This document shows positions 25,624 to 55,688 of a DNA stretch of 64,000 bases, in pieces. Source of the DNA: Inia geoffrensis (taxonomy: Eukaryota > Chordata > Mammalia > Artiodactyla > Iniidae); the NCBI GenBank assembly GCA_036417435.1, contig CM070901.1, forward strand, positions 68,806,501 to 68,870,500, given 5' to 3'. Numbering within the stretch: the stretch's first letter is position 1; each line of letters opens with the position of its first letter. A program made the position numbers and the translations under genes. The notes below the pieces were generated by a model. That model worked only from the letters and a program-made list of their open reading frames with translations. It was not told where the DNA came from and made no database searches.

Positions 25624-25652
25624 TTAGTAGTAGGTCTCCTTCTCCAGCCAGC
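25624..25652 (-). pseudogene. ATP1A4: ATP1A4 exon 22 (C-terminus)
   Basis: 29 nt encoding (G)WLEKETYY and TAA at 25626-25624, the canonical ETYY end of alpha subunits. AG at 25654-25653. Confidence 0.92.
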
Positions 25653-25912
25653 CTGTGGAAGGGAAGAGACCAGAGTGAACTGGGGAAGGCCTCAAGGGGG
25701 GAAAAACAGAAGGGTGAGCCAGGACACGGTGGGAGGCTTGACGGTGGGAGGCAGGGCCCTGAGGGTTGGAAGGAGCCGCGTGCTGGGGTCAAGGACTAGA
25801 GGGCAGGGTCCAGGCACAGCACAGGCTGGGCAGTGAGCTGGGGAGAAGGGCAGTGGGCCTGGAGGAACCAGGGGGAGTGAGGCAGCTGGTCAGGACGCTG
25901 GCAGACTCTCAG

Positions 25913-25969
25913 GCCAGGGTGCAGGGGAGCCTCACCGCCAGGGTGCAGGGGAGCCTCACCGCCAGGGTG
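25913..25969. repeat. 24-bp tandem duplication spanning the ATP1A4 exon 21 donor
   Basis: Units 25913-25936 and 25937-25960 are identical, with a partial third unit to 25969. Each contains gcctcacc, i.e. a GGTGAGGC donor on the gene strand. Confidence 0.9.
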
Positions 25970-26051
25970 ACAGCAGATGATGAGTTTTCTGATTTCATCA
26001 TAGGCAAAGATGAGGATGCTGTAGGGAGTGGCACAGAGCCACCAGGTTATC
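25960..26051 (-). pseudogene. ATP1A4: ATP1A4 exon 21 (M10)
   Basis: 92 nt encoding [20 protein letters not shown] to CCHPG. Open. Its 3' end and donor are part of a 24-base tandem duplication (see 25913-25969), so two identical donors lie 24 bases apart. Confidence 0.93.
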
Positions 26052-26590
26052 CTGAAGAGAGCAAAAGCTGGTCAGCGGGGGCGGAGATAGAGGGACCAGT
26101 GAAAGGCAGGTGCAGAGAACAGTGCCCGGGAATCGAGTGTTTCGTTTGTTGTGTGGGAGGTTGATCCCTACCTTTGAGGAGGTCAGAGCCTGGGGAGTGA
26201 AGGCGGAGCGGCCCAAGACAGGAGCATAAAAAGCCAGAGAGAACAGAAAGGGATAAATGCCATATTAGAGGTACATGCAGTGTTCACAGAGATTGTCTAC
26301 CAGCTTTTGTGGAGTCGCTGAGGGAGACTACCTTTGCTTTCTGGGTTCTCTAGACCTTGCACACACAAACTCCAAGCAGGATGGGTCTGAGACTAGATGT
26401 GGGGTATATCTTGCCAGGGAATATATACACTCTTCCATATTGCAAAGATGGTGAAATCTTTTTCTTCCTGAATCTCTTCTATAGACCAGGAAGATGGATT
26501 CTGGGGAGGGGTTGAATCAGGACCACATTTGTCCCTTGGATGATAGAGAGATGGCTTAGAGCAGCATTGTCCGATAGAAATATACTGTGA

Positions 26591-26917
26591 GGGCTTCCTT
26601 GGTGGTGCAGTGGTTAAGAATCCGCCTGCCAATGCAGGGGACACGGGTTCGAGCCCTGGCTCGGGAGGGTCCCACATGCCACGGAGCAACTAAGCCCGTG
26701 TGCCACAACTACTGAGCCCACGTGCCACAACTACTGAAGCCCGCGTGCCTAGAGCCTGTGCTCCGCAACAAGAGAAGCCACCCCGATGAGAAGCCCGTGC
26801 ACCGCAACGGAGAGTAGCTCCCAGTCGCCGCAACTAGAGAAAGCCCGCGCCCAGCAATGAAGACCCAACACAGCCAAAAATAAATAAATAAAATAAATAC
26901 ATTTATAAAAAAAAAAA
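26591..26917 (+). mobile_element. CHR-1-type SINE (ATP1A4 intron 20)
   Basis: tRNA-like head gggcttccttggtggtgcag, a body with repeated gtgccacaactactga units, and an A-rich (AAATA)n tail. Flanked by near-identical duplications (gaaatatactgtgag / gaaatataccgtgag) at 26577-26591 and 26918-26932. Confidence 0.88.
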
Positions 26918-27377
26918 GAAATATACCGTGAGCCATATATGATAGTTAATATTTTCTAGTAGCTACATGAAAATAAGTAAAAAGAAACAAGTGCAATTAA
27001 TTTTAACATTTTATTTAACCCCAAATATCCAAAATATTATTGCTTCAACATGTAATCAATATAAACATAATTAATGAGTTATTTTACATTCTTCTTTTTA
27101 TCCCAAGTCCTCGAAATCCAGTGAGCATTTTACACTGACAGTGTATCTCAAGTCAGACACTAAATTTTCAGTGGTTAAAGGAAAATGTAGTCAAACCAAA
27201 ACAATAAAGTTGTATTTAATTGAAAAATATTTGACACTGGTTTAGTTTTTAACATTCAGTCAACTAAAATTATAAATTCAATTTCTCAGTCTCACTAGCC
27301 ATATTTCAAGAGCTCAGTAGTTGCATAAGGATGATGGCTACCATACTGGACAGGGCAGGCCTAGGCCATGGTTCATT

Positions 27378-27397
27378 ACACACACACACACACACAC
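27378..27397. repeat. short (CA)n microsatellite
   Basis: About ten CA units in ATP1A4 intron 20. Confidence 0.85.
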
Positions 27398-27734
27398 CAC
27401 CCTCAACCAATATAAACAGTTACAGACATACAGTCATGCATTCATTCAACAACAATAATCATGTCTACTCTGTGTACGTGCTAGGTCCTGGGGAAATAAA
27501 AATGATGACATGATGGCCTTTGATCGCAAGAAGCTCAAGCAATCAGGGAAAAGAGGTTAGATAAATGCACAAAATAAATAATCACAGTATTAGGTGATGA
27601 GTTTTATGGTCAAGGTATGTACAAGAGTGTTTGGGAGCACAGTTAATGCTCAACCACGTTTACTATCATTTATATGTTGACATTAATAGCAGTAACAACT
27701 GAGCTACTATTAACAAAGTGCCCACCGAGACCCA

Positions 27735-27905
27735 AATGCCATGCTTCATGCATTATATGCATTTCTACCTGTAATTATCAGAACAATCTGCCAGGTGTGT
27801 GTTATCGAGACTTTGCAGTTGAAGCTGAGGCTCAGAGAGGTTACCAGCTTGTCCAAGGTCATAGAATAATACACAGTACAGCCAAAATTCAAACCTGGAA
27901 TTGTC
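27735..27905. mobile_element. MIR fragment (ATP1A4 intron 20)
   Basis: 'gttgaagctgaggctcagag' and 'aggttaccagcttgtccaag' are the MIR core. Confidence 0.6.
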
Positions 27906-28603
27906 AGTATCTAAGGGCGGTGCCAATGTCTTTTATTAAACATTAATTGAGCAGCTACAGAATACAAAGCATTGTGTAAAACACTCCAAGGGATAGAAAG
28001 GTGAGCGAAGTGTGTAAACACATAGAAAATCAGTTGGAAGACTGCACACTAAATTATTAATAGAGCTTACCAATGCAGGGTCGGGGAGGAGTGGGAATGA
28101 AATGGGAGTTTTGCTTTTTTCTTTATAAAAATGTTAAATGGAAAAGTTTCACAAGCAACAAGGAAACAAAAACTTGGGACTTGAACCAAACAAGGTACCA
28201 GACAGTAAGAATTTCAGTATGCCCACCCACCTATATGCACATTAAAACGGATTTGCAGAAGTACAGCAGAGTTAGTCATGCATAGATTAGGCTGTTTTAT
28301 GATTACACCAGCTCCAAGCAATGTGTAGCCTGGGACAGCTATACCACACATTATCATAGAAAAGGTACCACTCTGTTAAGCACTGGCAAATCTGCTAAGT
28401 TTGCATGTCTAGTGGGTTGTGATCACTTGGTACAGTCCCTAATTCCTCCCCGGATAGGATGCGCTGTGGGAGCACAGGCAGTTCTCTCTACATCACTGAG
28501 TGGAGCCTGCTCCCCTCTTGACTTCCCTGCTCAAACACGCCTCCTCCCATGTGCTCTCCCTGTGCCCAGAGACGCCCCGCCTTGCACCCCTCCCCTTACT
28601 CAC

Positions 28604-28705
28604 TTGAGTGGGTACATTCTCAGGACCACGTCCATGCCTGGAGTGTAGGACAGAAAAGCAGCCAGGAACGTCTCCTCCAGGATCGCAAATATTAGGATCT
28701 TGTTT
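28604..28705 (-). pseudogene. ATP1A4: ATP1A4 exon 20 (M9)
   Basis: 102 nt encoding [20 protein letters not shown] to LRMYPL. AG at 28707-28706, donor GTGAGT. Open. Confidence 0.93.
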
Positions 28706-28797
28706 CTGATAGGAAATGTTTAAGGGTGTGTTGGAGGTCGGGAGGGAGAGTTAGGGGTGCAGCTTGGGAGAGTGTTGGGGCCGGTGGGCGGTGCTCA

Positions 28798-28974
<177 letters not shown>

Positions 28975-30059
28975 TCAAATATGCCTCAAAGGCTTCCTTC
29001 TCCTGCCTCCCCGGACCCCAAGGCTGAGATAGGTCCCCTATTTAGATTCCTGCCGCCCTCCACGTGTATCTCTGTCTTAGCACTTCCCATGTTGTAATTG
29101 TGAGTTGTTTATATGTTTGCCTTCCTTGACTGAGAGCCCCTCAAGGGCAAGCACCTTGTCTTACTTATCTCTGTGTCTCCTCTCCCCATGCTTCGTTCAG
29201 TGAGTGGCAGGTACTATGGCTCAGTAAATATTTACTAAGAAGAAGGGTGGTGTAAGAGTAGAAGGTGGACTTCAAGAGGAAAACAGAGTCAGAGGAAAAA
29301 GGTAAGGAAGATGGGGCCGGAGGGGAATCTGCATGCAGAGGGGAAACGGATACACGAAGAGTGGTACCAGATGGGAGGCATTCACTCATCCATTTGTTCA
29401 TTCTTTCATTCACATTTTACACAGAAGGAACTTAGGGTCCAATGGGGAAGATAAATATGCTATGTCAGCACAGTAGGTAGGTTACAAGAGGGAGATCACA
29501 GAGGGCTATGGAAACACAGGAGAGGAGCATCTAAATTAGACTGGAGAAAAAGCCCGTTTAAAAAGAAATAAAACAGCATGTCTATAAATAACTTGTAGGT
29601 CGAATAAAGAACTTGAAAATATGTAGGACTAAACAATAATGAGATACTACAGATAGAATCTCATGGGATGTGGTCAATGTTGTACTTGGAGGGAAATATA
29701 GAGCCCTAAACAATTAGAAAACAAAGGCTGGAAATCGATGAGCCAAGCATTGAAGCTAGAATGAGACCTGTCAGCACATTTCTGTGCATCAGATCATACC
29801 ACCACTATCCCCTGCAGCCAGCTACCAAAACTGAGCCACACCCATCATCACTTGAAAATTTTAGCTCCTAACTCACCATCACTCTAACTGCTGTGTCCTC
29901 GGATTTGGAGATTTAAATGTACGTTGATGATCCTTCCCATACCATGGTCTCACAGTCTTAATCTTCTCCTCCAACTGTATCCTCTACTCCCCACCCGGCT
30001 GCTTACTTCCATGGTTAAACTCCAGACATTGTCTTTCCCAATAGCCACAATTTTTCTGT

Positions 30060-30358
30060 GATTTTAATTTCAAGCACCTCTCTTCTCTCTGATCACTGTC
30101 TTTATCTTTCCATCTCACCTACTCTAGTATCCCAATTCCAACACTTCTTGGACTTGGACTTAAAATCCATGGACCCAATATGTTATATATTTGGCTATTA
30201 TCTTTCTCCCCTCCCACTCTGTGCCCCTAACTAGAATATAAGCTCCATGAGAGCAGTAACTTGGCCATTTTTCTTCACTACTATATTCCAGGGACAGAAT
30301 AGTACCTGGTGCATAGAAGATGCTCAACAAATACTTGCTGAATGAATAAATGAAAGAA
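30060..30358 (+). mobile_element. L2 LINE 3' end (ATP1A4 intron 18)
   Basis: 'tagaatataagctccatgag', then 'gatgctcaacaaatacttgc' and tgaatgaataaatga, the classical L2 3' terminus. Confidence 0.65.
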
Positions 30359-31711
30359 TGGTGATCAATGGAATTACTGCTAGAGGTATTTAGAAGATAA
30401 GGAGCTATCTAGCAGTATGTAGGGTACTCTCTGGGTAGGCAGCTCTATACTTGATTATCTGAAGATTACAGCAGTGGAAGAGGCAGAGACCTTGCCTTTA
30501 TGGCTTTTATTCCGCAGAGCAATTGTTCTCAACACATTTTGCAATATCTCAAGACGTCACTGATGTAATTTGACATTAATTCAAATTAATTATCTTTAAT
30601 TTATTGTAAATAAACACGTGTAAAGCTTCATTTTGGTAGCAGGGAGATGGTATCAAGATATAAAACTAACAAGGGGCTTGATCTGAGGACTGAGGAGATG
30701 TTGACAAGGTACATAGCAATGAGGACTCTGGTCATCTTTGGACCCTGGAGCAGTGTTGGTAGCTGGGAACATTGACATCTGTTGTTCTCATGAGGCTCAG
30801 ATAGTGGAAGCCTACTGTGTATAAGGGGCAATGTTCCAACAGCCCCGATTTTAACTTACTTTTGAGAGACCTGCAGTTAGCTTGGTTTGGAGACATCATA
30901 GTGAAGTGGGAAAGTGCCGGGCAGGAATCAGTCCAGATTTCTAGTCCAGCTGTTATAGGGATTCATTGTGGGACTTTAAGCAAGTCACTAGATCTTTCCA
31001 GTAGACCATAATGTCCTCTGTAGACTGTGTGAACTCTGTGGTCCTATGATTCTAGCAAACATTGGCGTCACATCTCGCACTGTCTTAGAAATTGGGCTGG
31101 GAGTGTTCACAGATGCAAACAGGCATACTCACTAAAATTCTTAAGCAAATATTGTTGGTTGGAGGGCTTTGGTTTGGACCTTATTCATCTTGGGTGTTAG
31201 GAATGACTAATACAGAGACGCATCCTCTAAGTTTAAAAAGTTTAGAAGAACAAGGAAGAGATATACAAAGAAAATACATTTTCAGATTTAAAATCATACT
31301 CTTTGACGACCCTTGGAAAAGGAGCATAACAGGAGGAAGTGGACCCAGCACTCATTTCTGGGACAATGATGATTAGAACCTGGAAAACCAGAAATCAGCC
31401 CCCAAAAGTTGATTGACAAAGTAGACTTCCAGGTCCAAGGAAGACAAAAAGACCCAGGAAGATAAGGACAGACAACAGACCGTAGGAATTAATGGAAATG
31501 AAGTCACCATAAACAAAGAGAAGAATATTTGCTGATGCGATTGGAGATTGAGGACAAATGTTAGAAAGCTCCTGTAGGACTGGAGATGAGGACCATCTCT
31601 GTCTGCCTGGTGCCTCCATTCTCCTACTCTGCAAAAACTTGCTACACTCACTCTTCCTCATTACTTCTTCACTCTTACTGGTCACAATCTACTACCCTAC
31701 CTTTTACTCAC

Positions 31712-31857
31712 CCACTGTTGTCCATAGCTGTCCTCCAGGTCATTGAGGTATCGATTTTCCCAGCTGATGCAGATGCCCAGCAGATCAGTACGTTTAAAAT
31801 CATTCTCAGCCAAGATCACAAAGTAGGTGAAGAAAGCTGCCAGAGCCTGGATCATCC
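31712..31857 (-). pseudogene. ATP1A4: ATP1A4 exon 18 (M7)
   Basis: 146 nt: [18 protein letters not shown] (M7) and the beta-subunit contact region ending SYGQQW. Open, junctions intact. Confidence 0.93.
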
Positions 31858-32529
31858 CTGTGAGTGATAGGGTCACAGGTCAGGGGAACCTGATTCAGAG
31901 AAGGATCTCAGAAGTCAGATTATGGAAGGGGTGCTGCCTGGGGCTTGCTTCTAGCAGGGTTGATGTGTGTCTGAGCTGTATTACTGAAGATTCATGCCAT
32001 TAATGATCTGATCCCACCATCTCTGTAGGACTTGTCTCCAAACTCTGACATTTCTTTCTAAGCTGTAATCTAGAGTCATCTTTTTATCATATAAGCTTAA
32101 AACTGGAAAGGACCTTAGAGGGGATTTGTTCCCTCTCCCCCCTGAGTGAGTGCTGGACTCCGCCCTGTCCATTCTCTCTGACACCAGGACACTCATCGAG
32201 TCCTCTCATCCCCTCGCATCTCTCCCATCTGCCCCTTGCCTCTCCCTTGGTCAAAACCTCCACCCCCTCATGCCTGGACCACGGCTATGGCTGACGTTAA
32301 TGTTTGCCTACTGACCACAGATCTGTGCACTGTGTAGGTACTGGTGGACATGGATTCTTGCAACAATTCTGAACTATCATTTACATTTCATAAGTGGGAA
32401 AACTGAAGCGCGAAAAAGGCTCAGTCATTGTCTAGGGTCATACAGGTCATGAAATTGGGATTCAAGCATAGGTATGGCTCCTAAATCTGTGCTTTTTTTC
32501 TATGTTTCCATCTCTAGATATTAGGATTG

Positions 32530-33000
32530 TCTCCTCTGTCCCCATCTCTTTCCTGTACCCCTATCGTATCTAGCAACTCAAGAACAAAGACCTCTAATGG
32601 CTCTCAAATGTCTTTCAAGGCTGGCCCCACTATAAATGCTACCTGTGTCCACAGCCTCATTTTCCACTACTTCTTTATCAGGAATAAGTGCTCCACCAAA
32701 CTGGTTTATTCACTCTTCAAAAATCAGGTATCCTCTGGTCCCCCGCACTGGACCATCCATTTACTAGTCTAAGCCCTATCTTCCAGCACCGAGTTTAAGT
32801 GCTGTTTCCTCCATAAGGCCTCTCCAACTGTCCTTAAGTTTGGTGAATCCTCTTGCTTTGTACTCCTGCAGTATGTCCTATCTATACTCATTTGGCACTT
32901 GGAGAACAACTTGCCATCATTTTATGTACTTTTGCTCCTTTTTGACTAGACTCTTAAGTCAAGGTAAGATCAGAGATCAATGTTTTTTTTGTGTCCCAGG
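32530..33000 (+). mobile_element. L2 LINE 3' region (ATP1A4 intron 17)
   Basis: 'caaatgtctttcaaggctgg', 'cataaggcctctccaactgt' and 'tgtcccagggcccagcacag' follow the L2 order. Diverged. Confidence 0.55.
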
Positions 33001-33119
33001 GCCCAGCACAGTTTGTTGTTAAGAAAATATCTCCCTGACTTCCAAACCAAGATTGGTCCAGTGGCCACGCCGGTGCAGCCGCTCCCTGCCCCCTTCACCC
33101 CTCATTCCTCTGGCCGCAC

Positions 33120-33243
33120 CAATCTGTCCATAGGCCATGCCGGTGAGACGGTCATTCACCAGCTTATCAGTCTTTGGATTCCGTGGAGCCCTCTTCATGA
33201 TGTCACTTTCAGCCGACTCATAAGCCAAGGAGATAGCAGGGAC
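33120..33243 (-). pseudogene. ATP1A4: ATP1A4 exon 17
   Basis: 124 nt encoding [20 protein letters not shown] to MAYGQI, the L6-7 loop. Open; the donor GTGCGG is sub-optimal. Confidence 0.93.
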
Positions 33244-33351
33244 CTGGAGGATGGAGGGTGGAAGTGACAGGGAACACACAGTTCAGAAGGAAACTCAGAA
33301 GTAACTCGAGCTCTGCCCCTCTCCCTGGACACAGATTTTTCCTACTCCTCA

Positions 33352-33567
<216 letters not shown>

Positions 33568-33883
33568 TCAGCCTTCTGTGAGAAGCACAGAGAGTTCACA
33601 CCTCCCACAAACCAGCTCCTGGACAGAGACTGCTACAAAGCAGTGTCACAGTCCACGAAAGGGTCCGAAGGTCTTAGGCCTTGGCAGCCCCAGTTTTGTT
33701 TCTAAATTGTGTGACTAGTAATTAGAGTCATGATTTATTAACGTGTCATATCTGTATACTCTTTGTTCTTGGGTTCAACATGGCTACTATCATCTGATCT
33801 CTGAAAATTAATCAGGGTGGGGCCTGTTAATACTTAGAGATGTGTGAGAATGCCAATATAAAAGCCATTAGAAGATTAAGGCT

Positions 33884-34345
33884 GATTCACAGTAACATGG
33901 ATGGACCTAGAGGTTATCATACTAAGTGAAGTAAGTCAGACAGAGAAAGACAAATATCGTATGATATCGCTTATATGTGGAATCTAAAATATGACACAAA
34001 TAAACTTATTTACAAAACAGAAACAGACTCACAGACATAGAAAACAAATTTAGGGTTACCAAAGGGGAAAAGAAGGAGCCAGGGAAGAGATAAATTAGGA
34101 GTTTGAGATTAGCAGATACAAACTACTGTATGTAAAATAGATAAACAACAAGGTCCTACTGTATAGCAGAGAAAACTATATTATATACTATAAAGTGAAA
34201 AGAATGTGAAAAAGAATATATATGTATATATATGTGCATACATATATACATATGTATCTATCTATCTGTATCTGAATCACTTTGTTATACACCAGAAGCC
34301 AACACAACATTGTAAATCAACTATACTTCAATTTAAATAAAAGTC
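33884..34345 (+). mobile_element. LINE-1 3' terminal fragment (ATP1A4 intron 15)
   Basis: The unit starting 'taacatggatggacctagag' and continuing 'cttatatgtggaatctaaaa' is the 3' end of the cetartiodactyl L1 lineage. It closes with 'caactatacttcaatttaaa' and an A-rich tail. It contains a tatatatgtatatata-type microsatellite at ~34217-34265. Confidence 0.8.
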
Positions 34346-34479
34346 TGAAGTGGAAAGAGCCTGGGCTTGGGTTCCAATTCCATTTTCTGCCATAACTAGC
34401 TTGTGATCTTTGGCACCCCTCACCTTCATTTCTCCTGCCTTGCAAGATGGCTTGAGTCCTTACCTGACAACCTTTTCTA

Positions 34480-34705
34480 ATATTGTCATCCCTCCCTCCA
34501 CTCCCTGCTTTACTTATTTTTTTCCATTGCACTTGTCTTCTTTTATTATACTGTTCAGTTTACTTTATTGTCTGTCTGTCTCCACTGGAAATTAAGTTAC
34601 ACAAGGCAGGGATGTGTGTTTTGATTCCCAATTATAGTATCCCCAGCATCAAGAATAGTGTCTGGTACATAGTTGATACTCAGAAAGTTTATTGAATTGA
34701 GTGGA
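34480..34705 (+). mobile_element. L2 LINE 3' end (ATP1A4 intron 15)
   Basis: 'tctccactggaaattaagtt', 'atccccagcatcaagaatag' and 'ttgatactcagaaagtttat' mark an L2 terminus. Confidence 0.6.
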
Positions 34706-35156
34706 TATAAAATACTGAAGATCATACAAGGTCTAAATAAAATGTTAACTATTACTCTTATGTGGATTGTCATAGATTTTAATAACATAGCTCCAGGCAG
34801 AAATCAGAAATCAGGGAGCCTGGGAAGCAGAATTCTGGGCTTCTCCTGTATGCCAGTGGGTATTGTCTCTGGGAAAGAGGGGGCTTACTTTAGCTCATGC
34901 AGTCAATTCATAGATTAGGCTCCAGCTGATCTTGATATGTCAACATCATTCAGACAACAGGTTGTTAGAAAGTCCTCCTGAGGTTGTGGAGTACAGTGTA
35001 GTCTCACGGTATAGCTACACCCTGATACTTACTGTAGACCCACTTGAATCCCCATGAGAGAAGAAAAACAATGCTATGCTGCACTAGAGCCCCACTCTTC
35101 CTAGAAAATCTGGACTTTCCTCCAATCTCATAAGGGCTCCAGAGAGTGATGTGCTA

Positions 35157-35594
<438 letters not shown>

Positions 35595-35815
35595 TCATGC
35601 TTGGTTTAGGCCTCTTGGCCCTTCCTTCTCCTACACCTCCTGAGATAGCAAAACTCACAGGGAGCCCCCAAATGGATGCCTGTCTCAGGGGTTCACGATG
35701 GGATGCTCTCTGGAGCCTCCTCTAGCCCAGCCCACACATTCCTATGCTTGGTTTGGGGCTGGGCTGTGCCACGTGATTCCCTCCAGATTCTCCAAGCCTC
35801 CTTGGTGTCCCTTAC

Positions 35816-35958
35816 CAGCCTCTGACATCCCTCTACAATGATGAGCTTCTGCTGGGGGGAGCAAACACGATCTCAGTGTGGTTTTGGAGGATTTCATCAA
35901 GCTGCCCTGAGTTCCTATTTTTTAGGTCTGAGCCGTGCACCACAATGGCTTTTAATCC
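35816..35958 (-). pseudogene. ATP1A4: ATP1A4 exon 14 (indels and stop)
   Basis: 143 nt where the family has 151. After completing Arg664 the frame reads Asp then TAA (35954-35952), owing to loss of one base in the normal D-A-K-A segment. Further on, the 12 bases coding RTSP between VFA and QQKLIIVEG are reduced to 5 (35855-35859), a 7-base deletion. Both changes alter the frame; together they remove 8 nt. Confidence 0.93.
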
Positions 35959-36358
35959 CTGAGGGAGAGGAATTTCAAAAGGCTAGTTCAGAGTGTTGAG
36001 AATTTTCACCAGGTGTCCTGGTGCCCTCTAAGCCATCTTTGCTATCACCTCCTTGTTTCTCCTTTCAACCCCATCTCCTCACTTGTCCCCAGCCACGCAC
36101 TGTCCCCAGATGGGCACATTGCATTCCTTCCCTCCTCTCCCACCTCCTCCTCCCTCTTCTCTACCTCCTTCTTTGTCCCACCTTCATCGGAAAACCCACT
36201 GACATAGTTGCTTGGTCATTTTCCTATTACGTTTTACTTTGCAGTAAGTAAACTCTGCACATCTACCTATAGAAAGAACCTCCGAAAATGTTAGTGGGTG
36301 GGGCAGGCTAAGGATGGAGGGAAAAAATGGCAGATCTGAGCTCTTTCAGGGACCTCAC

Positions 36359-36495
36359 CTGGCATTGACCTGGCTGACAGGGATCTTGAGCCGGGCAGCA
36401 ATGTCCTCTGCTGTCTCGGTGCCTTCTGAGATGATGCCCACACCCTTGGCAACGGCCTTGGCTGTAATGGGATGATCCCCTGTTACCATAATTAC
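36359..36495 (-). pseudogene. ATP1A4: ATP1A4 exon 13 (P domain)
   Basis: 137 nt encoding [20 protein letters not shown] to VSQVNA, containing the TGDHPITA P-domain motif. Open, phase 2 at the end. Confidence 0.94.
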
Positions 36496-43506: not shown

Positions 43507-43716
43507 TTTTTTTTTTTTTTTTTTGCTGTAGGCGGGCCTCTCACTGTTGTGGCCTCTCCCGTTGCGAAGCACAGGCTCCGGACGCGCGGGCTCAGTGGCC
43601 ATGGCTCACGGGCCCAGCCGCTCCGCGGCATGTGGGATCCTCCCGGACCGGGGCACGAACCCGTGCCCCCTGCATCGGCAGGCGGACTCTCAACCGCTGT
43701 GCCACCAGGGAAGCCC
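43507..43716 (-). mobile_element. CHR-2-type SINE (ATP1A4 intron 10)
   Basis: Full-length reverse copy with poly-T start, flanked by perfect tgttatggc duplications at 43498-43506 and 43717-43725. Confidence 0.92.
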
Positions 43717-43802
43717 TGTTATGGCTTTTTTTTTTTTAGTTACAAAAATTGTTTTTTCTTGTGACAAAAACTTTTAAGATCTATTCTCTTAAGCAACTTT
43801 CA

Positions 43803-43908
43803 AATATAAAAGTATGGGCCGCCTCATGAATTTGCCTGTCATGCGGGGGCAATGCTGGTCTTCTCTGTATTGTTCTAGTCTTAGTGTATGTGCTGCTGAA
43901 GTGAGCAC
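43803..43908 (-). pseudogene. U6 snRNA pseudogene
   Basis: On the minus strand the sequence starts gtgctcacttcagcagcaca and keeps the U6 landmarks: aatacagagaaga (near the ACAGAGA box), ccagcattgcccccgcatga (AGC-triad region) and caaattcatgaggcg, followed by a run of T. Length ~106 matches U6 (107 nt). Several substitutions (ACTTCAG for GCTTCGG at the 5' hairpin, AGACTAG for AAATTGG) indicate a dead retrocopy. Confidence 0.88.
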
Positions 43909-44779: not shown

Positions 44780-44915
44780 CTGGTACTTGTTGGTAGAATT
44801 AAAGGGAATTTCTGCCACCTTGGGGCTTTTCTCTCTCATCTCCTTCACAGAGCTGTAAGACCTGCTCGATGAACTTGAGGAGGGCTGACTCAGAGGCATC
44901 CCCTGCTGTTGCCCG
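44780..44915 (-). pseudogene. ATP1A4: ATP1A4 exon 10 (frameshift)
   Basis: 136 nt where the family has 135. [18 protein letters not shown] reads normally, then an extra G (plus-strand C at 44861 or 44862) shifts the frame. The original frame resumes as [18 protein letters not shown] in the +1 register. GT/AG junctions are intact. Confidence 0.93.
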
Positions 44916-45106
44916 CTGCCGGGATGGGGTTGGTATAATGAGCCCGAGAGGCAAAGGCACCTGGGCTTGCCAGTGGTGTCAAGGAGAGGAACAGAATGGG
45001 GAGGGGTGCTGGGGGCATCACCGAGGGCCAGAAAAGAGGTATTGAGGGGAGAGGGCAGGTTATACCCTGGACACTGAGGTACCCTTTACTCTCTTGGGCC
45101 TGACAC

Positions 45107-45216
45107 CTTAGCTATGGGAAGGTACTCCTGATTAGCCTTAAAATCAGCCCGGTTGCAGAGGCCAGCGATTCGGGCCAGGATAAACCAGGTATCAGAGCCC
45201 TTGGCAAACGCATTCC
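45107..45216 (-). pseudogene. ATP1A4: ATP1A4 exon 9 (N domain)
   Basis: 110 nt encoding [20 protein letters not shown] then [16 protein letters not shown]. Frame open, acceptor AG at 45218-45217. The donor GTGTCA is weak. Confidence 0.92.
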
Positions 45217-45452
45217 CTAGGGAGAGAGAACAGAACTGTCAGCAGGGATAGGAGAGCTTAAAGCAGGAGTTCATTCACACCCCTTCTGCGCCCAGATGCT
45301 TCTCAGAGACAACATTTCATCTCCTCCACACCTCCCTGCTCTCCTCTCACTTTGCAACTACCTTCTTGCTGTCCGGACTCACCACGCCCTGTCAGCTACT
45401 CATCACATTCCCCACATCCTTCCACTCTCCGACCGCCAACGCCACTAGTCAC

Positions 45453-45651
<199 letters not shown>

Positions 45652-46544
45652 TTAAGGCCGTGAACAGGGGGGAGGGGAAAAGGAGAAGAGAGCTCGGCTG
45701 CTCACAGCGCTTTGTGCTTTTGGAAATCTGATCGTTTTCACTGCTCTTTTAATTTTTTATATTTATTCCCCTTTTGTTACCACCTAGTCTTTAGAAACCC
45801 CATCTGTGACTATGGGAAAGGGAATTAGGAAAGTGATTTCGTTTTGTACTTTATGGCAGAGTTTCCAAAGAAGAGTGCTTTCTTTTACCAGGGTATCATA
45901 GAGAATGATCTCCTTTTCCTCCTGGAATATTCCTCTCCCCCTCGATCCTTTCATCTTTTCTATTCTGCAGCCTCTTCTCCATTCAAGTTCAAGCCACACT
46001 TCTTTCTCAAGTCCAGTCTTTCCAGGGGCCACAGTGAGAGCTAACCTTTGATTGTGGCATAAGATGCTCTGTGTGGAGGAGGGTTGTACCAGTAGTTTAA
46101 AAAAGGAGTGGGGAGGAGAGAATGATGAAACTGAGAAGGACTGTTGCAGCGCTGAAAATGACTTGAGAAGTCACTTAAACCAAAAGATTTTTGTTGACCA
46201 TAAATCCAGTGAAAGTCAGGTGTGGGGCAAGGTTATTTTAAAAACGAATGAATTCTTAGGCTGCGGTTATGTACAGAATTCTAATCATGGAGTTATTATT
46301 TATTTACACAATATCATGAGTACTGATGTTTTTGTGCTAGTCGAACCACACCCTGGGTATTATTCTCATTTCCATTTTAAGAAGGGTATTGATAAAGGAG
46401 AGCATACCTCAAACAGGTGATCAGCAAGACAAGGGGTCTGAAGATGTGTCACAGGAAGAAGGGCTAAGGGAAAAGGGATTATACGACCTCTCCCCTGTAG
46501 AGTTTGAGGGGACATAATGGTTACTGTCAAAGATCTAAAGGGTT

Positions 46545-46760
46545 GGGCTTCCCTGGTGGCTCAGTGGTTGAGAGTCTGCCTGCCGATGCAGGGGACACGG
46601 GTTCGTGCCCCGGTCTGGGAAGATCCCACATGCCGCGGAGCGGCTGGGCCCGTGAGCCGTGGCCGCTGAGCCTGCGCGTCTGGAGCCTGTGCTCCGCAAA
46701 GGGAGAGGCCACAACAGTGAGAGGCCCTCGTACCGCAAAAAAAAAAAAAAAAAAAAAAAG
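46545..46760 (+). mobile_element. CHR-2-type SINE (ATP1A4 intron 7)
   Basis: The only forward copy of this subfamily in the window: head gggcttccctggtggctcag and a 22-A tail, flanked by perfect gatctaaag duplications at 46532-46540 and 46761-46769. Confidence 0.93.
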
Positions 46761-47384
46761 GATCTAAAGTGTAGGTTTGTAGAAGAGAGAGAATTGACTT
46801 ATTTTGTATTTCTTCAGATGGGAAAACTGGGACCAAACAGGGAACCATATGTTTGTTCAACATAATGAAATCTAACTAGAGCAATCCAACAATGAAGTGA
46901 GGTCAGATAAAAAGGGGTGGGCTTCCCATGGCTAGAAATCATCATCATCTCCTACAGATTTTATGCAGGGTATTTGGCATTGGTTGAAAGGTTGAATTTA
47001 TATGGGCTTTGAAGTCCTTTCCAGTAAGATTCTATAATCTTAAATTAATCTTCTCCTATGAACTGATGAATAAACTGAGGCCCCGAGTGCAGTGGGTTGG
47101 CCAGATTCACCAGCCAGTACGCCCAGGACTGGAACTCACTCCCGGTGATCGATAATCTATGCTTTCTGCGTCGTAACTCACTTCTTTTCTCATTAAAGAC
47201 AGAAGGCACCAGAAAATAGGGGTGAAGGAAGTCAGTGTAATTTGGGAGCTCAGTGATATGACATCTGTATATGCATCAGAGTACTCTGCACTGGAGAGAT
47301 TCAGCCACAAAAGAGATGATAGTGATTTCATTTCCTTGGGGCTGTTTGTCTGCCCCGGGGCCACACTCCACCTTAGCTACTCAC

Positions 47385-47653
47385 AGTGACGGTGGCCAGC
47401 AGCCCCTCAGGCACGTTGGCCACAATGATGCCAATAAGAAAAATAACAGCCTCCAGCCAGGTGTAGCCCAAGATAAGTGAGAGCCCAAAGAAAATGACAC
47501 CGAGGAAGATGGCCACTGCTGTGATCAGATGGATGAAGTGTTTGATCTCCACAGCAATGGGGGTCTGGCCCACTTCCAGGCCGGAGGTCAGCGAGGCAGT
47601 TCTGCCCATCACCGTGGAGTCTCCTGTGGCAATCACGATGCCCCGGGCTGTCC
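47385..47653 (-). pseudogene. ATP1A4: ATP1A4 exon 7 (M3-M4)
   Basis: 269 nt, the family exon size. Encodes [18 protein letters not shown]3, M4 with the ion-site motif [13 protein letters not shown]. Open, GT/AG intact. Confidence 0.94.
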
Positions 47654-48042
47654 CTGTGGATGAAGGGGGAAGTATGAATTGGAAAGGCTGTTGGGTTTGG
47701 TTCCTACACAGAGAAAACTGTCAACAGTCAAAAATAAGGTGGAAACTCAAGGTCCTCTGAGAGGTTATAATGTTCTACTGTCTTTACAGTTCGCTTATGC
47801 AAGTGAAGGTCTCCTCATCTGAAGAATCTCTGGAGAGGTTTCGCAGTTCTCCAGAAATACCCGATTTTATTGCCTAATAGCTTTCACTGTCAAGAAGGTC
47901 TTTGTTACACTTAGTCTAAATCTCTTCCATTGCCTATATGTTTCTTATTTTGTCCTCAGCAGCTGAAGAGCTTCTCGAGCCCCAGGAATAGTTGTTACCC
48001 TTCTGCTAGAATCCTGTGTTCCAATATCTCCCCATCCTCTAA

Positions 48043-48267
48043 CCCAGGGCTACTCAATTTGCCGCCCTCATCCCCAGGAGACATTTGGCAAAAGGTCTGG
48101 AGGCATATTTGGTTGTCACGACTGAGGTTGCTACTGGCACCTAGTGGGCAGAGAGCAGGGATGCTGCCAGGCAGCCTGCAACTCACAGGACAGCCCTCCT
48201 CTCCCGCTACCACGAAGAACGGCGCGACACAATTGTCAGCAGTGTAGAGGTTGAGAAACTCTGCTCT
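48043..48267. mobile_element. MER20 hAT transposon (ATP1A4 intron 6)
   Basis: 'ggagacatttggcaaaaggt' and 'ggcatatttggttgtcacga' through 'gtagaggttgagaaactctg', in the opposite orientation to the copy at 16.8 kb. Confidence 0.8.
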
Positions 48268-48534
48268 GACCGAGCCTCTTCCCTGTTTTGCTGGCTGGAG
48301 CTAGTCTGCCCCCTGCTGGGTAGCATAGGCCATAACATGGCCCGTGAATCAGACGGGGAACTTGACATACCCAGGATGTGGCTTGAAATGAGGGTCCCCA
48401 CAAGGTTCTTTGCTCAAAATAATTCTTCCTGCTTTACCATGATGGCTGAAATTCCTACCATTAAAGTTATAGTCAGAATCACCCAGAAAAGCAGCATATT
48501 ATAGAAATAGCGCTTATTTTCGAATCAGAAAGAC

Positions 48535-48720
48535 TCAGGGCTAGAAGTTCAACTTCCAATGTACTAGCTGTTCACCCTGGGGCAATTTACTTAAACTCTC
48601 TGAGACTCAGGTTTCCTCATCTTTAAAATAGGGTAAAAACATCTACAAAGCTGTGAGAATTAAATGTTTTTAAAAGAGCCTAGAACAGGGTTTGGCACAT
48701 AGTAGGCACTCAAATATTTG
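48535..48720. mobile_element. MIR fragment (ATP1A4 intron 6)
   Basis: 'ctctgagactcaggtttcct' and the downstream 'cacatagtaggcactcaaat'. Confidence 0.6.
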
Positions 48721-50464
48721 TTTCTTTTTTTTCTCCATTTAGATGAATTTAAGGTCTCCAGAAGGATGGCTAGAAAATCACACATATGCCTTGCAGGGTA
48801 GCTCTAATCTGGCAGCTCCCACGAACATCATAGCAGGGAGCGGCCAGTCCATTTTCAAGGTCACCTTCAGCATTATGAGTCTGAGAGCAGGTTCTGCTCC
48901 GACCAACAGCAGACGAGTGAGGTCACTGCTATGTGAAGAGTGGTTCTGGAACGCCTCACAGTATGAGGCACTCTGCAGATGAGCAGGAAGATACTAAAAT
49001 AATTGAGAGGTGCTGAGAGGGTTTATTTTGGCAGGGGGTAGGGGTGGTTAGGGTATGGTGTCAATTATAGTCATTTTGTGCCATGGTTTAATCTAGTTCT
49101 TCATTTTTCTTCCTTCTGCTATGGTTTCCCCATGCTTGGAGAGACAGGATTTAATAACTAATCCCAATGTGCCTAGAGAGGGGGAAGGTTGATGTCAACC
49201 TTGGGGGAGGGTTAAGAAGGCCAAGCCTCCCATATTCCAGGCTAGACTGACTTCTTCCTACACCTTCTATACAGTGCCAGAGAAATAGCTTACCATCTCT
49301 CCCCTACCCCCCATGAAGATGCATGAGAATCCAAAGAGAGATGTTTGTACCAGCAGCCCTGTCAAGGGCCACAGTGATGAAAGCAGAGAGGCAAGGGCCT
49401 AGGATAAAGGTTAACGTGATGCTACCTGTTTGCAGATTGCACAGGGATTCCTCAGTTTAACAGTCAAGAGCTCCTCCAACCTAACTCCACCCTCTTGGTC
49501 ACATCTTGGGTCCCTCTAGTCTCCTATTAAAGCCTTCTCTATTCTAGTCAGATCCCTGTTTCTTAGATGGAATTCCATCATCCACTTTCCCTGTTATTTG
49601 AAGCATATAATTTGTTGATGAAAAGCCTACTTTGGAAGGACAAATCTGAGCAAATTTCTTCCTAAAATTTAATAATAGGAATCTCACGTTTTTGGAGGAA
49701 GCTTGCTAACTTGCATCTTTCTGTTCAATCAAGTTACAAAAATTTTTTTAATATATATTTTATTTTCTAGTTGGATTCTTCTTCAGTCTTAATGGTACTC
49801 TACTCCTTTAAGCTATTTCCAAATTAAATAATTTTATTACCAGAGGGGTCATTAGCAAGCTTTATTCCAGGGGAGGTTCTGTGGAAAGAGCATGGGCTTT
49901 GGAGACAGACCTACATTAGAATCCTTGATCCTCCTCTTTTTTGTTGAGTTGTGCTCTTGGGTGCTGCATTTAATTTCTCTGAAGCTTGGTCTTTCATGTG
50001 TAAAATAGGAATAATATCTGTTGTACAGTCTTGTTAGGATCAGAGATTTCTGTGGCACTTGACACGTGCTAGGCATTCAATTAAAGAATAGCTATTTCTT
50101 AGACACCCAAACATTTATTCTTAAGCATAAATGATGGTTTTCATGTGTGTTCCAGAGAGTTTTGCAGGCCTTCTTAAGCAGAAAGGATGAAGGAGAGGTT
50201 GACATAATGATATTGAGCCCATGGGTACCACTTTGGCCAGAGCTGTCTCCCGGTTCAAGGATGCCCTAGATTCTAAGAACAAAGCCAAAGGTGTGAATGG
50301 CACCTCTGGTAACTCAGATTTCCAATGCCAGTACCCTCTCTTGGGATAGTGAGAAGTTAGGGCTTACTTCAGGAGAAGAGTGACCTAGCAGAGCTGAATA
50401 ATTTTCCTCCCTTCTGTGCTATTTTCAGCTCATAGAGCATAGTCCATTCACTAGATAGAATAAA

Positions 50465-50650
50465 AATAGCTACAATTATAGGGCACTTAGAGTGTGTTAG
50501 GTCTTACGCTAGGCATTTTATTATGTATTATCTCCTTTAACCCACATAAAAATCTATGGAGTAGTGACTTTTAGTATCATCAGTGTACAAATGTGGAAAT
50601 GATGGCTTTGACCTTTCATCAAAATTTGTATAGCTCATGAGGGATGAAGA
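50465..50650. mobile_element. MIR fragment (ATP1A4 intron 6)
   Basis: 'tgtgttaggtcttacgctag' and 'attatctcctttaacccaca' correspond to the MIR left and core parts. Confidence 0.55.
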
Positions 50651-50767
50651 ACGTAGACTACTTACTGGCTGTTACCTTCCCTACTGCCCTTAGAAGATAG
50701 AGAGGTCTGGAAATCTTTGTTTCAATCTTTGCTTTTGAATCTAGGCTCCTTATGATTCGATATTCAC

Positions 50768-50885
50768 CTTCCACACAGTTGGTGGAGAGGAAGCAGATAT
50801 TTTGGGTCTCCACAGGGTTCTCATTGGTGAAATCAGAGGAGCAGGACTGGGGCTCTGCCTCTCCTGTCAAGGATGAGTTGTCCAC
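50768..50885 (-). pseudogene. ATP1A4: ATP1A4 exon 6 (dephosphorylation loop)
   Basis: 118 nt, codons 221-259 plus one base, open. The conserved TGES loop reads TGEA ([14 protein letters not shown]); the catalytic Glu is kept. Confidence 0.93.
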
Positions 50886-51101
50886 CTGGGATGGGAGAGA
50901 GGACAGGTCATCGAAAAAAAGCACCAACATCATCATTATTGACATGCAGAGAGAAGCATAAACTTACACACCACTGTAACCTCAAATCTGCACTTAAGGT
51001 TCTAAACAAATAAGATCACGTTGTTTTGAACTGAGTCCAGGTCACTGCAGTGCTCTAAGACCATACTTGGCCCCCTTCCATAGCATTTCACATCCCCTCA
51101 C

Positions 51102-51236
51102 CTTACATCCTTGTGAAGAGATAAGCCGGATGTCAGCAGGGCTCCGGTCTCCTCGCTTCACTTCTACCAGGTCTCCTACCACCACGTCTTGTACAGGGAT
51201 CTGAATCTTCTCTCCACCTCGGATTACCAGAGCTTG
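51102..51236 (-). pseudogene. ATP1A4: ATP1A4 exon 5 (actuator domain)
   Basis: 135 nt, codons 176-220, open frame. The family motif GGDRxPAD reads RGDRSPAD here: Gly to Arg, and a hydrophobic residue to Ser. Confidence 0.93.
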
Positions 51237-52019
51237 CTGTGGGAAGATAGTGTTGGGTCATTTCCAAAGCTTTTTGCTCCCCTCATCCAGTTCCTGGTCT
51301 CTTTCCCTCTGATTCCCTTTTCTTACACTGTCACTCACCACATCATTCTCGAAGGTCTCTTGGGTAGATTGCAAATTCTTACCATCGCTGTCTACAGGGC
51401 CCTTTGATGCTCCTCTCACTAAACTATGAGGTCTATCTTTCCATTCCTACACTTAGGCTTGGCTGTATCGCTTGCTTTGGCCCATAGGACATTAGCAAAT
51501 GTAGTGCAAGCAGGCGCATAGAAAGTGCTTGCACCCTGGGGCTTGCCCTCTGCCACCATATTGAATGTGCTCAAGCTACCCTCCTGGAGGGAGAAAGATG
51601 AGAAGGAGAGAGGCCCCAGCTGTCCGTGACATCTCAGCTGAGGCCCCAGACACCTGCCTGAATGAAGTCTCCCAAGGCCACCCAGCACCAGCCAAGGTCA
51701 GCCCAGATCAGAAGAACAGCCCAGCCACAGAACTGTGAGAAATACTATGTTCATTGTTTTGAGCCACTATGTTTCGGGGTGGCTTGTTTAGCAGCAAAAA
51801 CTGATAGTCTCCAAACTCCTACTTCATTCTACCAAAACGTTCCCCACTGAACTCTTACCCAAGGAAGGAATTAAGTTATGTTGACACCAAAGGGAGACGA
51901 GGCTTCTGAGCTATAATGCGAGAACATGATCGTGTCATTGGGGAACTTTGGAGCTATTCCTTTCCAAGTTTTCAAGCCCTGTGCCTAGGAACCCCCTTCT
52001 ACTGTCATGTTATTTCCAG

Positions 52020-52760
52020 GTTCTTTAGAAAAGTTTTATCTGAAAATAATACACACTTTCAAAAGAGTTGCAAGAATAAAAATTGTACCAAGAACACCCA
52101 TATAACCTGCACCCAGATTCATCTGTTAGCCTTTTACCCCATTTGCTTTGTCATTTGTTCCCTGTCTCTATATATGTGGGTATGTAAATACTTTTTTTCC
52201 TGAACTATTTGAGGGCAAGTTACATACATCATGATCTTTTATTGTCCCTACTTCAATGTCCATTTCCCAAGAATTAGGATATTAAATAACCATAATACAG
52301 TTATCACATTCAGTAAATTTCACATTGACACAATACTTTCACCTGCTGTCTGCATTCCAGTTTTGTCAATTGGCCCAATATATCCTTTACAGCATTATTT
52401 TCTGCTCCACCACAGGATTTGGTCTAGGGTCAGATATTACATTTAGCTGTCATGTCTCTTTAGCCTCCTTTCATCTGGATCACTTCCATCGCTGTTCTTT
52501 GTCTTTAAGGCCATCGACATTTGAAGAACCCACACTCCCTTTGCCCCCACCCCCGCTTTTTGGAAGAGAACCCCCAAAGATTTAGAGTTTCAGATTATGC
52601 TCATTGGATTCAGATCATGCATTCCAGACCAGACCACTTCATGGATGTTATTGTGTTTTTCTCAGGGTACTTTTAAGGCCTGATAGAGTAAAACCTAAGT
52701 GAATGTCACCCTCATTACCAGCCTTACTCAGTTCACTCACTGTAGGAAATAATTCTTCAG
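52020..52760. mobile_element. ancient L1 (L1M-type) 3'UTR fragment (ATP1A4 intron 4)
   Basis: 'aaagagttgcaagaataaaa', 'aacacccatataacctgcac', 'agctgtcatgtctctttagc' and 'tcagattatgctcattggat' follow the order of L1M 3'UTR copies. It ends ~70 bases from exon 4. Confidence 0.75.
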
Positions 52761-52831
52761 GGGACATACAAATCATGCATTTGGCTACATTCTACACGTT
52801 CTCCCACTATATCCTTCCACATGAATCCTAC

Positions 52832-52945
52832 CTGAGGTACCATGCTCTTAAAAGATTCCATGATCTTGGAGCTCTTGGCCTCCTGATAATAGGAGAAGCA
52901 GCCAGTGATGATGACCACGACAGTTAGTACAATGCCGAGGTACAA
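52832..52945 (-). pseudogene. ATP1A4: ATP1A4 exon 4 (M2)
   Basis: 114 nt, codons 138-175: M2 ([17 protein letters not shown]) followed by [17 protein letters not shown] at 52947-52946, donor GTAGGA. Intact. Confidence 0.93.
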
Positions 52946-53540
52946 CTGGGGGTTGGGAAACAAAGGGCTCATCAGTAGGTCCTTTTCTTCCTCTTCATCC
53001 TCAGAAAGTCAGCTTGCAAGCGTAACAGCCGTATTTCCAGGTGGAAGAAACCATGGGCCTCGGTGGGAGAGCACAGGGGCTGAGAAGAGTCTGAGACAGG
53101 CCCCGTTCTCTGGGCTTCCTTGTTAAGGAGCCCGGAGCCACAGTGAGGGGCCAGCAAAATCCCAGGCCCGAGAAAGCCTATATCTTCCTCTCCAGGAAGG
53201 CTATTCATGGGGTTGAGTGTGGCTATTGAGGGAGATGGAGAGGAATGATAGGAAGAGATTAAAATTCTATGAAAGAGAATGGACAGCAAAGTGCTTTGAT
53301 GACCAGTTGGGAAGATAATCAAAGGACAGCAAGTTTCTGGGGGGAACGTTATATCTCAGGGAGTTGAATCAGGAGCAATCTAAATAAGAGGGAAACCAGG
53401 AAAGACAAAAGCTTCCTTAGAAAATCCTGGGAGTATGGAGATTGGGGCCAGAGGACTTCAGGAGTGCTAGGCTGCTGAGCAGAAGACTATTGAGGGCTAA
53501 GCAGACACTGGGCTTGGCAGTAGTAGTTGAACAGACTCAC

Positions 53541-53747
53541 ATTATCTTTAGTAGGGTCCTCATGGAAGTATAACTGGATGCCATAGGCCACGAAGCAGAG
53601 ACTGGCACCAGTCCACAGTAGGAGGGAAAAGCCACCAAACAGTTGTTTACAGAATTTAACCCATTCTGGAGTGGTAGGGGGTGGTGGGCTAAGTGTATTG
53701 GGTCCATCTCGAGCCAGGATTTCCTGTGCCTCTCCAGGGCTATGGCC
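53541..53747 (-). pseudogene. ATP1A4: ATP1A4 exon 3 (M1)
   Basis: 207 nt, codons 69-137: [14 protein letters not shown], then M1 ([16 protein letters not shown]) and the extracellular [12 protein letters not shown]. Gln and Asn sit at the two ends of the M1-M2 loop, as in ouabain-sensitive alpha subunits. Intact. Confidence 0.93.
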
Positions 53748-54601
53748 CTGTGTGGAAAAGAAATAGGAATGGATGGAGAATGATGAAAAGAAAAGCAACT
53801 ATAAAAAAGGAAAACCTGGCTTCAAAACTCAGGTCTGCCATTTATTGTGCTAGGATAAGTCTAGAGACCAGTGAAGTTCTCTGAAGGTCATACTGGAAGT
53901 TCTTCCTACGTAAGTGGGATTCTAAAATTTGCATTAGAGAAGGATCTCATTTAGCCTCCTTGCATAGGAAGAATTTTTAGTTTTTATGGGTTGACTCACA
54001 AATCTTTTGAACCCCTGTCTTGGGCCTGGTACTGTGGTTAGGGTACCAAAGCGAGTAAGAATGATCCCTACCCTTATGGAGCGCCAACCTTAATGAGATA
54101 CATATAAATGATTTATAATATAGTGTGCCAGGCTAATGGGATGATGAGATATGATACGTAATGTTGATAACATTTGGACCTCCACACTTGGACTCTTTAA
54201 CTTAGAAATAGGAAAAAAATACCAACTAAATCCAACATGAATGTGTAGATCCTCACTCTAGCCTTGTGCATAAGCTTGTGTGCTTTTTTCTTCTTAGTGA
54301 AAATGAGAGTAGAACCTACCAGAGGATAGTAAAAAAAAAAAAACCAAAACGCTCCTTAATTCCCATCAGCCACTCCCCCGGAAAAACATGCAATTTTAAT
54401 AAAAAACGGACCAGCCTTCCATGCTCCTCCTTGGTTGCCAGATGGCCATCCCAAGCCCCTCCAATGAAGAAATTCTAGAGCTAAGAGGAACTTACAGTTT
54501 GAGGGCTTTTATTTTTTTATTTGTGGTCATTGTATTCGTGGTTATAGTAGCAGCAGCAGCAGTACTAGTGATAATAGCAGTAATAAATGGTTTTGCTGTT
54601 G

Positions 54602-55085
54602 AACCAGCAGTTCTCAAAGTGTGGTCTGGGGACCCATGGGGTCCTGAGATCCTTTCAGGCGGCGTCCACAAGGTCAAACAACTTTCAAAGTAATACTAAA
54701 TTGTTTGTCTTTTTCACTCTCATTCTCTTAAGTATACTGTAGAATTGTCCGAAGGCTACAGGGCACATGATAGCACAGTAGCGTTAATGCTGAAAATATA
54801 TGAGAATCTAGCTGTCTTCTATTAAAAAGCTAGACATTAAAGAGATCTGCAAAAATGTAAAATACCACTAATATTTTTTTGTTTTGAAAAACAGCATTAT
54901 TTGTCATAAAAATATTATCTGTACTAATATATAATGGTTGTTTCTAAATGAGTTAGGAAATACTTTTTAATTTTCTCAATTTTAATTTCTAATATGATAA
55001 AATATAAGTAGATGTAATCCACATAAGCAAAAGCTCTTTGGGGTCCTTGATGGGTCCCGAGGACAAATGTTTGAGAAGTGCTGCC
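54602..55085. mobile_element. DNA-transposon relic with inverted ends (ATP1A4 intron 2)
   Basis: It starts cagcagttctcaaagtgtgg and ends 'aaatgtttgagaagtgctg', giving matched inverted termini ~480 bases apart, of hAT/Charlie style. The exact family is not identified. Confidence 0.5.
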
Positions 55086-55301
55086 CTAACCCAACCTCAT
55101 TCTCTCATCTAATCCTGAACTCTCTTTGGGTAGTTACCATTTCATCTTTTTCTGAGTGTGTGTCCTTGGCTGGGTGCAGGTTAAGGGTAAGAGCATTGAC
55201 CTTGAATTTAGGGGCTAGATTTCTAGCCCTGCTTTTGTCCTGGCAGCCTCAAGGTCGGGAATGGAGACCCTCTGCCTCCCTCAGGGAGTTCCTTCACTCA
55301 C

Positions 55302-55361
55302 CTTGGTTAGGTCCACAGAATATTTGGTGCTCAGCTCGTCCAAGGTTAATTTGTGATCATC
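55302..55361 (-). pseudogene. ATP1A4: ATP1A4 exon 2
   Basis: 60 nt encoding DDHKLTLDELSTKYSVDLTK (49-68). AG at 55363-55362, donor GTGAGT. Intact. Confidence 0.92.
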
Positions 55362-55544
55362 CTGAGGGGACAGTAGAGTCATTGAGGGACAGGGGGTGAC
55401 GCATCATTTCTAGGGGAAACATTTCGGGGAAGAGAGGTGGCACTGGCCTGTGTGATCAGTTTTCAAGGTGAGATGTTAGCAGCCTGAGGGTTGAGAGAGG
55501 TTTTTAGAGGGCAATTTGTCAGCACCCATTTCGGGTGTTCTTAC

Positions 55545-55688
55545 CATGACCACTTCCTTCTTCAGGTCCTCCATCTCTCTCTTTTTTTTCATCTTCATCT
55601 TTCTTTCACTCATTTTAGGACCCTTAGGTCTTGGGCTTGGATTCTGCTCATGAGGTGTCACGGTCGCTTTTCTCCCTCCAAGAGCCAT
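55545..55688 (-). pseudogene. ATP1A4: ATP1A4 exon 1
   Basis: Codons 1-48, MALGGRKATV onward to DLKKEVVM, open. ATG at 55688-55686, donor GT at 55544-55543. Lys/Arg-rich cytoplasmic tail typical of alpha-4. Confidence 0.88.

Follow-up and report, generated by a model that had tools for sequence, protein, structure and literature searches.

ATP1A4, the gene of the sperm sodium pump alpha-4, as a very probable unitary pseudogene in Inia geoffrensis, with probable decay in other whales

Unitary pseudogenes are well known in cetaceans, the losses of skin and olfactory genes being examples. Here we describe a further and very probable case, the gene ATP1A4 for the alpha-4 subunit of the sperm sodium pump, in a window of 64,000 nt from Inia geoffrensis (C4:68806501-68870500; contig C4 measures 185.96 Mb in a 2.749-Gb assembly of 895 contigs). 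Positions below are those of the window unless a contig is given. We consider the locus to be, with high probability, the ATP1A4 orthologue of a toothed whale that is dead as a pump gene. It is similar to the known cetacean unitary pseudogenes in that the orthologous locus is in place, lesions are present, replacements look neutral and no functional duplicate was found; it differs in that male mice depend on ATP1A4 for their fertility, according to the knockout work covered in a 2020 review (PMC7401355). In that mouse knockout exons 5-8 of Atp1a4 were removed and the males were sterile; alpha-1, which the same text also places in the sperm of human, rat, mouse and bull, was still there in them, but its level was not raised and fertility was not restored (PMC7401355). 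The exon 8 phosphorylation site is lost both in that knockout (PMC7401355) and in the Inia locus, but the mice are sterile and the whale lineage evidently is not. Loss of a gene in whales is a familiar event; ATP1A4, being needed for mouse fertility, is a surprising member of the class.

Lesions and identity of the ATP1A4 locus

Reading exon by exon together with the splice sites, we found all 22 collinear exons of ATP1A4 on the minus strand at 55688-25624, with the ATG at 55688, a terminal TAA ending at 25624 and 21 of 21 introns of the GT-AG type. Five lesions were read directly, in exons 8, 10 and 14. Expected exon lengths for these calls are those usual for the ATP1A genes and those of the intact paralogues in the same genome; the other ATP1A4 exons agree with the usual ATP1A lengths. 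Exon 8 (45650-45453, minus) has 198 nt compared to the 199 expected, one base being missing at the acceptor junction, which reads AAG|TGTGTC, compared to AGG TGTG in each of alpha-1, alpha-2 and alpha-3 of the same genome. With the remaining AG as splice site the frame is shifted, and the reading frame of the joined exons meets a stop at codon 352, a short way into exon 8. This is the first of 28 stops in the joined frame; it precedes the nucleotide-binding and phosphorylation domains, and the four other lesions lie further downstream. In the original frame of exon 8, TAG at 45546-45544 (minus) replaces the Lys codon that follows the catalytic Asp in DKTGT, the phosphorylation motif, which here reads D*TGT. 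Exon 10 (44915-44780, minus) is one base too long (136 nt, 135 expected), a G having been added near 44861, which gives a +1 frameshift. Exon 14 (35958-35816, minus) has 143 nt instead of 151 as a result of two losses: the first, of one base, creates a TAA (35954-35952), and the second, at 35860/35859, took away about 7 nt. Skipping of exon 8 would, judging from exon content, cost the phosphorylated Asp.

The remaining exons are open. Exons 1-7 (55688-55545, 55361-55302, 53747-53541, 52945-52832, 51236-51102, 50885-50768 and 47653-47385) make up 349 codons. They are followed by exon 9 (45216-45107), whose donor GTGTCA is off consensus, exons 11-13 (40957-40768, 40622-40450 and 36495-36359), exon 15 (35495-35327), which carries A719V and G744V at sites invariant in mammals, and exons 16-22 (33554-33400, 33243-33120, 31857-31712, 28929-28799, 28705-28604, 26051-25960 and 25652-25624), all on the minus strand. 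Counted from the end of exon 1 onward, the single length difference from human alpha-4 is an extra codon in exon 3. Two minor features stand within this layout. A perfect 24-nt tandem repeat of 2.4 copies (25913-25969) runs across the exon 21 donor, so that the donor-bearing unit is duplicated. In intron 10, on the same strand, there is a U6 snRNA match of 66 bits (43808-43908, minus), probably a U6 pseudogene insertion.

The identity of the gene is supported by protein similarity, synteny and phylogeny. Among PDB entries, the conceptual translation matches human alpha-4 best (1936.7 bits), with alpha-1 next (1788.3 bits), and it is 93.5% identical to humpback alpha-4 compared to 78% for alpha-2 and alpha-1. 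ATP1A2 was found upstream of ATP1A4 in the adjoining 20 kb of contig C4, also on the minus strand. ATP1A4 therefore lies between ATP1A2 and CASQ1 with all on one strand, as expected of the orthologue; the order ATP1A2 - ATP1A4 - CASQ1/PEA15 is also that of human. In the best 120 of 7,980 matches, the nearest proteins are those of humpback (LOW QUALITY PROTEIN, 91%) and blue whale (92%); pig, yak and camel come next. Querying with exons 1-7 added a record of the pygmy sperm whale (Kogia), also tagged LOW QUALITY PROTEIN, of 311 aa and ending one residue past exon 7. With exons 15-22 as query, none of the 120 matches listed carried the name of a whale alpha-4, most rows being unnamed. In a maximum-likelihood protein tree the Inia locus groups with Kogia (support 95) within cetaceans that include the two rorquals (100), and cetaceans stand beside ruminants (91). 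A ruminant or pig origin of the sequence was rejected on this nesting, and a retrocopy origin on the 21 retained GT-AG introns. The ATP1A4 of other mammals has the same 22-exon layout and the same neighbours, and protein identity to pig, yak, camel, dog and macaque is 85-89%; unlike them, the Inia locus has the five disabling lesions and a neutral pattern of replacements. The original prediction for this DNA had called an ATP1A4 gene of 22 collinear exons with introns at 25624..55688 in a cetacean-like genome, with at least five separate disabling changes in exons 8, 10 and 14. Re-reading reproduced the coordinates and exon number exactly and gave exactly five changes, and the alpha-4 matches, the synteny and the place of the locus beside Kogia agree with the rest.

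A second intact ATP1A4 elsewhere in the genome would, by the terms of that prediction, undo it, and we looked for one by protein and by DNA. The whole-genome protein search with humpback alpha-4 as query gave 54 matches and no second alpha-4 in the best 44 of 152 candidates, which were the ones scored. The matches were the ATP1A4 locus itself, ATP1A2, ATP1A1 (C4:82.37 Mb), ATP1A3 (C32:15.37 Mb, identified as nearest to alpha-3), less closely related members of the family and a pair of old copies without introns. All three paralogues are thus present, and the exons of ATP1A1 and ATP1A2 are intact where read. A DNA search with exon 11, with 2 of 2 candidates scored, returned only exon 11 itself (100%) and its ATP1A2 counterpart (74%). 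A recent duplicate of ATP1A4 was accordingly rejected within the candidates scored. The two intronless P-type ATPase copies contain many stops; that at C9:14426174-14427382 is closest to alpha-1 and that at C7:114470394-114471962 is less than 45% identical to every isoform tried, and both were dismissed as alpha-4 on these grounds. The lesions therefore stand at the original locus, with introns kept and no functional copy found elsewhere in these searches, as expected of a unitary pseudogene.

Resemblance of exon 8 to ATP1A2

The first 139 nt of exon 8 (45650-45512, minus) form an apparent gene-conversion tract with ATP1A2, being identical to ATP1A2 exon 8 at 138 of 139 nt and including an exact run of 104 nt. 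With the exception of exons 15 and 16 and of short or masked ones, the other exons are 68-82% identical to ATP1A2 with runs no longer than 22 nt; for exon 14, whose indels put the codons out of phase, per-codon figures cannot be relied upon. Over the same 139 nt, alpha-2 and alpha-3 have 12 differences (127/139 identical) and alpha-4 and alpha-3 have 13 (p 5e-5 for the exon 8 tract). Exon 8 was thus apparently overwritten by ATP1A2 sequence. The sole difference in the tract is the A>T change that makes the TAG stop, which suggests that the stop arose after copying from ATP1A2. At usual mammalian rates, the tract would have arisen about 6-12 million years ago (limits about 0.1 to 64). The conversion may also have wiped out older lesions of exon 8.

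Exon 15 is a second and weaker candidate, with 162/169 nt identical to ATP1A2 compared to 150/169 between alpha-2 and alpha-3. In the ATP1A2 of Inia (C4:68870501-68890500), exon 15 has the alpha-4-type isoleucine in GIAMGIAG, where alpha-1 and alpha-3 of the same animal and macaque alpha-2 have V. This might reflect a conversion from ATP1A4 to ATP1A2, and the direction of any exchange in exon 15 could therefore be either way. Exon 16 was dropped as a candidate: it is identical to ATP1A2 at 145/155 nt, but alpha-2 and alpha-3 are equally alike there (146/155). We found no paper joining ATP1A4 and gene conversion in the literature searched.

Constraint on ATP1A4 among cetaceans

In order to assess constraint, we used a comparison set of 30 sequences, chosen from those retrieved: the Inia locus, three whales, the alpha-4 of 24 other mammals, one alpha-1 and one alpha-2. 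The whale records are the sequences closest to the Inia locus, form one clade with it and have private changes at invariant sites in a similar manner; they differ in being annotated as proteins, two of them tagged low quality, and are known here from those protein records. At columns invariant in the 24 species, Inia departs at 20/541, blue whale at 19/546, humpback at 11/545 and Kogia at 7/160, where the rorqual and Kogia sequences are annotators' models and some changes may be artefacts. For each of the five artiodactyls, the invariant columns were defined with that species and its closest relative removed, and the departures number 3 to 7 of 551-554 columns; the fastest functional species are Octodon (14/564) and Pipistrellus (11/557). 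We then counted private replacements, that is, states absent from every other non-cetacean row. Such replacements fall at otherwise invariant columns in 19/33 cases in Inia compared to 102/524 in the 24 functional species pooled (p 3.8e-6), and against the same pool in 19/31 in blue whale (p 1.1e-6), 11/19 in humpback (p 3.4e-4) and 7/15 in Kogia (p 0.018). The highest shares among functional species are those of Ochotona (5/12) and Cynocephalus (8/20), and a 12-species subset of the functional orthologues gives 38/208.

Branch counts were based on states absent from artiodactyls and on sites invariant in 26 outgroup rows. The shares of replacements at invariant sites are 17/34 for Inia only, 6/12 for Kogia only, 5/10 for humpback only and 12/19 for blue whale only; for shared changes they are 4/9 in both rorquals, 0/3 in Inia and Kogia together and 2/13 in all cetaceans, with Kogia missing at many of the latter. 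The neutral expectation, obtained by random mutation of this coding sequence with assumed transition and CpG weights, is 0.51. The crown cetacean branches pooled (44/87) match it, whereas the cetacean stem departs from it (p 0.012; crown versus stem, Fisher p 0.019). Replacements common to all cetaceans still look constrained. Since the crown branches look neutral and the stem does not, selection would have lapsed no earlier than the crown split, and the gene would have decayed in both suborders from then on. This suggests that ATP1A4 probably became free of constraint no earlier than the base of living cetaceans and that its decay probably extends beyond this animal to other whales. Inia-only replacements at invariant sites include S230A, R235C, F253L, A719V, G744V, G871A and R1016C.

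Of the alternatives, a single loss already present in the ancestor of all living cetaceans, in place of parallel later losses, survives best; it concerns timing, and we hold it to be possible though rather doubtful. It would account for the neutral look of both odontocete and mysticete branches and for the oddities in all three whale records, those of humpback, blue whale and Kogia, the blue whale record for instance reading ICSKETGT without the catalytic Asp (which may be an artefact of the annotator's model). However, invariant sites are largely spared by the replacements that all cetaceans have in common; no stop takes the place of the DKTGT lysine in the records of humpback and blue whale, although an annotator's model may conceal one; and the Inia stop sits in a tract that is probably young. 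We lean, by a little, towards the view that ATP1A4 is lost or being lost in all living cetaceans including baleen whales, by decay in parallel, with sodium transport in sperm passing to ATP1A1 and with gene conversion exchanging sequence between the dead copy and ATP1A2, its essential neighbour.

The sequence of events may be pictured as follows. Selection on ATP1A4 would lapse at or after the last common ancestor of living cetaceans and decay would set in; exon 8 would be overwritten by ATP1A2 sequence and acquire its TAG later; transcripts, if made, would be removed by nonsense-mediated decay; and the sodium gradient of whale sperm would be kept by ATP1A1. The sperm of these animals probably use a different pump, for which ATP1A1 would be the simplest substitute. 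If true, a natural loss of ATP1A4 in mammals would show that dependence on it is not universal, and would allow tests of what takes its place, be it a pump or a sperm property, and of the reasons why whales could do without it.

In the literature searched, we found no report of ATP1A4 loss in cetaceans, an earlier report in screens or supplements being possible, and no paper naming both ATP1A4 and cetacean. The likeliest places for an earlier report would be the screens of Huelsmann 2019 and Turakhia 2020. The list of species with alpha-4 sequences in the 2020 review names no cetacean (PMC7401355). Two points go beyond the original prediction: the records of baleen whales also seem to have decayed, and ATP1A2 sequence has apparently been written over exon 8.

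Error, polymorphism and residual products

Several observations weigh against loss of the gene in this and other whales. The departures of humpback at invariant columns are no higher than those of Octodon or Pipistrellus, so that decay in humpback rests on the LOW QUALITY tag and on its share of private replacements. The protein search for a second copy covered 44 of the 152 candidates. The coding exons are 92.5-93.5% identical to those of rorquals, and therefore the loss is of no great age. Indels of 1 nt, a type that sequencing errors mimic, account for three of the five lesions. The assembly is that of a single individual, which leaves some small room for a segregating null allele. A whale-genome paper puts ATP1A4 among the expanded families in sperm whale, a family-level label that comes, in the part of the text that gives it, without a statement on intactness (PMC9913093).

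That the lesions are sequencing or assembly errors in an intact ATP1A4, as the three one-base indels might suggest, is very improbable. The control genes of the same assembly gave 0 stops or frameshifts in about 2,366 codons (ATP1A2 931, ATP1A1 943, CASQ1 362, PEA15 130), the coverage being partial, with N runs at the expected places of ATP1A2 exons 4 and 19, and with both ends of ATP1A1 either unmatched or beyond the fetched stretch. If errors were evenly spread, five lesions in 3,082 nt of ATP1A4 and none in 7,098 nt of control would have a probability of 0.0025. Poor quality across the assembly was therefore rejected as a cause, and chance or bad sequence is unlikely as a general cause of the lesions. 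In addition, homopolymer errors do not typically take the form of a nonsense substitution or of a 7-nt deletion, the neutral pattern of amino-acid replacements is independent of indels, and the ATP1A4 records from three other whales are odd too.

A null allele segregating in a species where functional alleles are still common has equally slim prospects. One assembly cannot show fixation, but the five lesions and the excess of replacements at invariant sites imply a long absence of selection, and a similar excess is seen in the records of the other whales. It is scarcely credible that the locus still yields a useful truncated or alternative product from exons 1-7 or from an internal start in exons 15-22: both stretches are open and every intron is GT-AG, but Inia-only replacements strike invariant sites in both, and a product without exon 8 would lack the phosphorylated Asp and thus could not pump.

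Two of the control genes are neighbours of ATP1A4 in the window. The exons of CASQ1 (21563-13013, minus) and PEA15 (3183-1249, minus), located by tblastn, served both as syntenic neighbours and for quality control. On the other side, upstream of ATP1A4 towards ATP1A2, there is a tRNA-like Rfam match (59268-59340, minus), whose sequence is presumably the tRNA head of a cetartiodactyl SINE.

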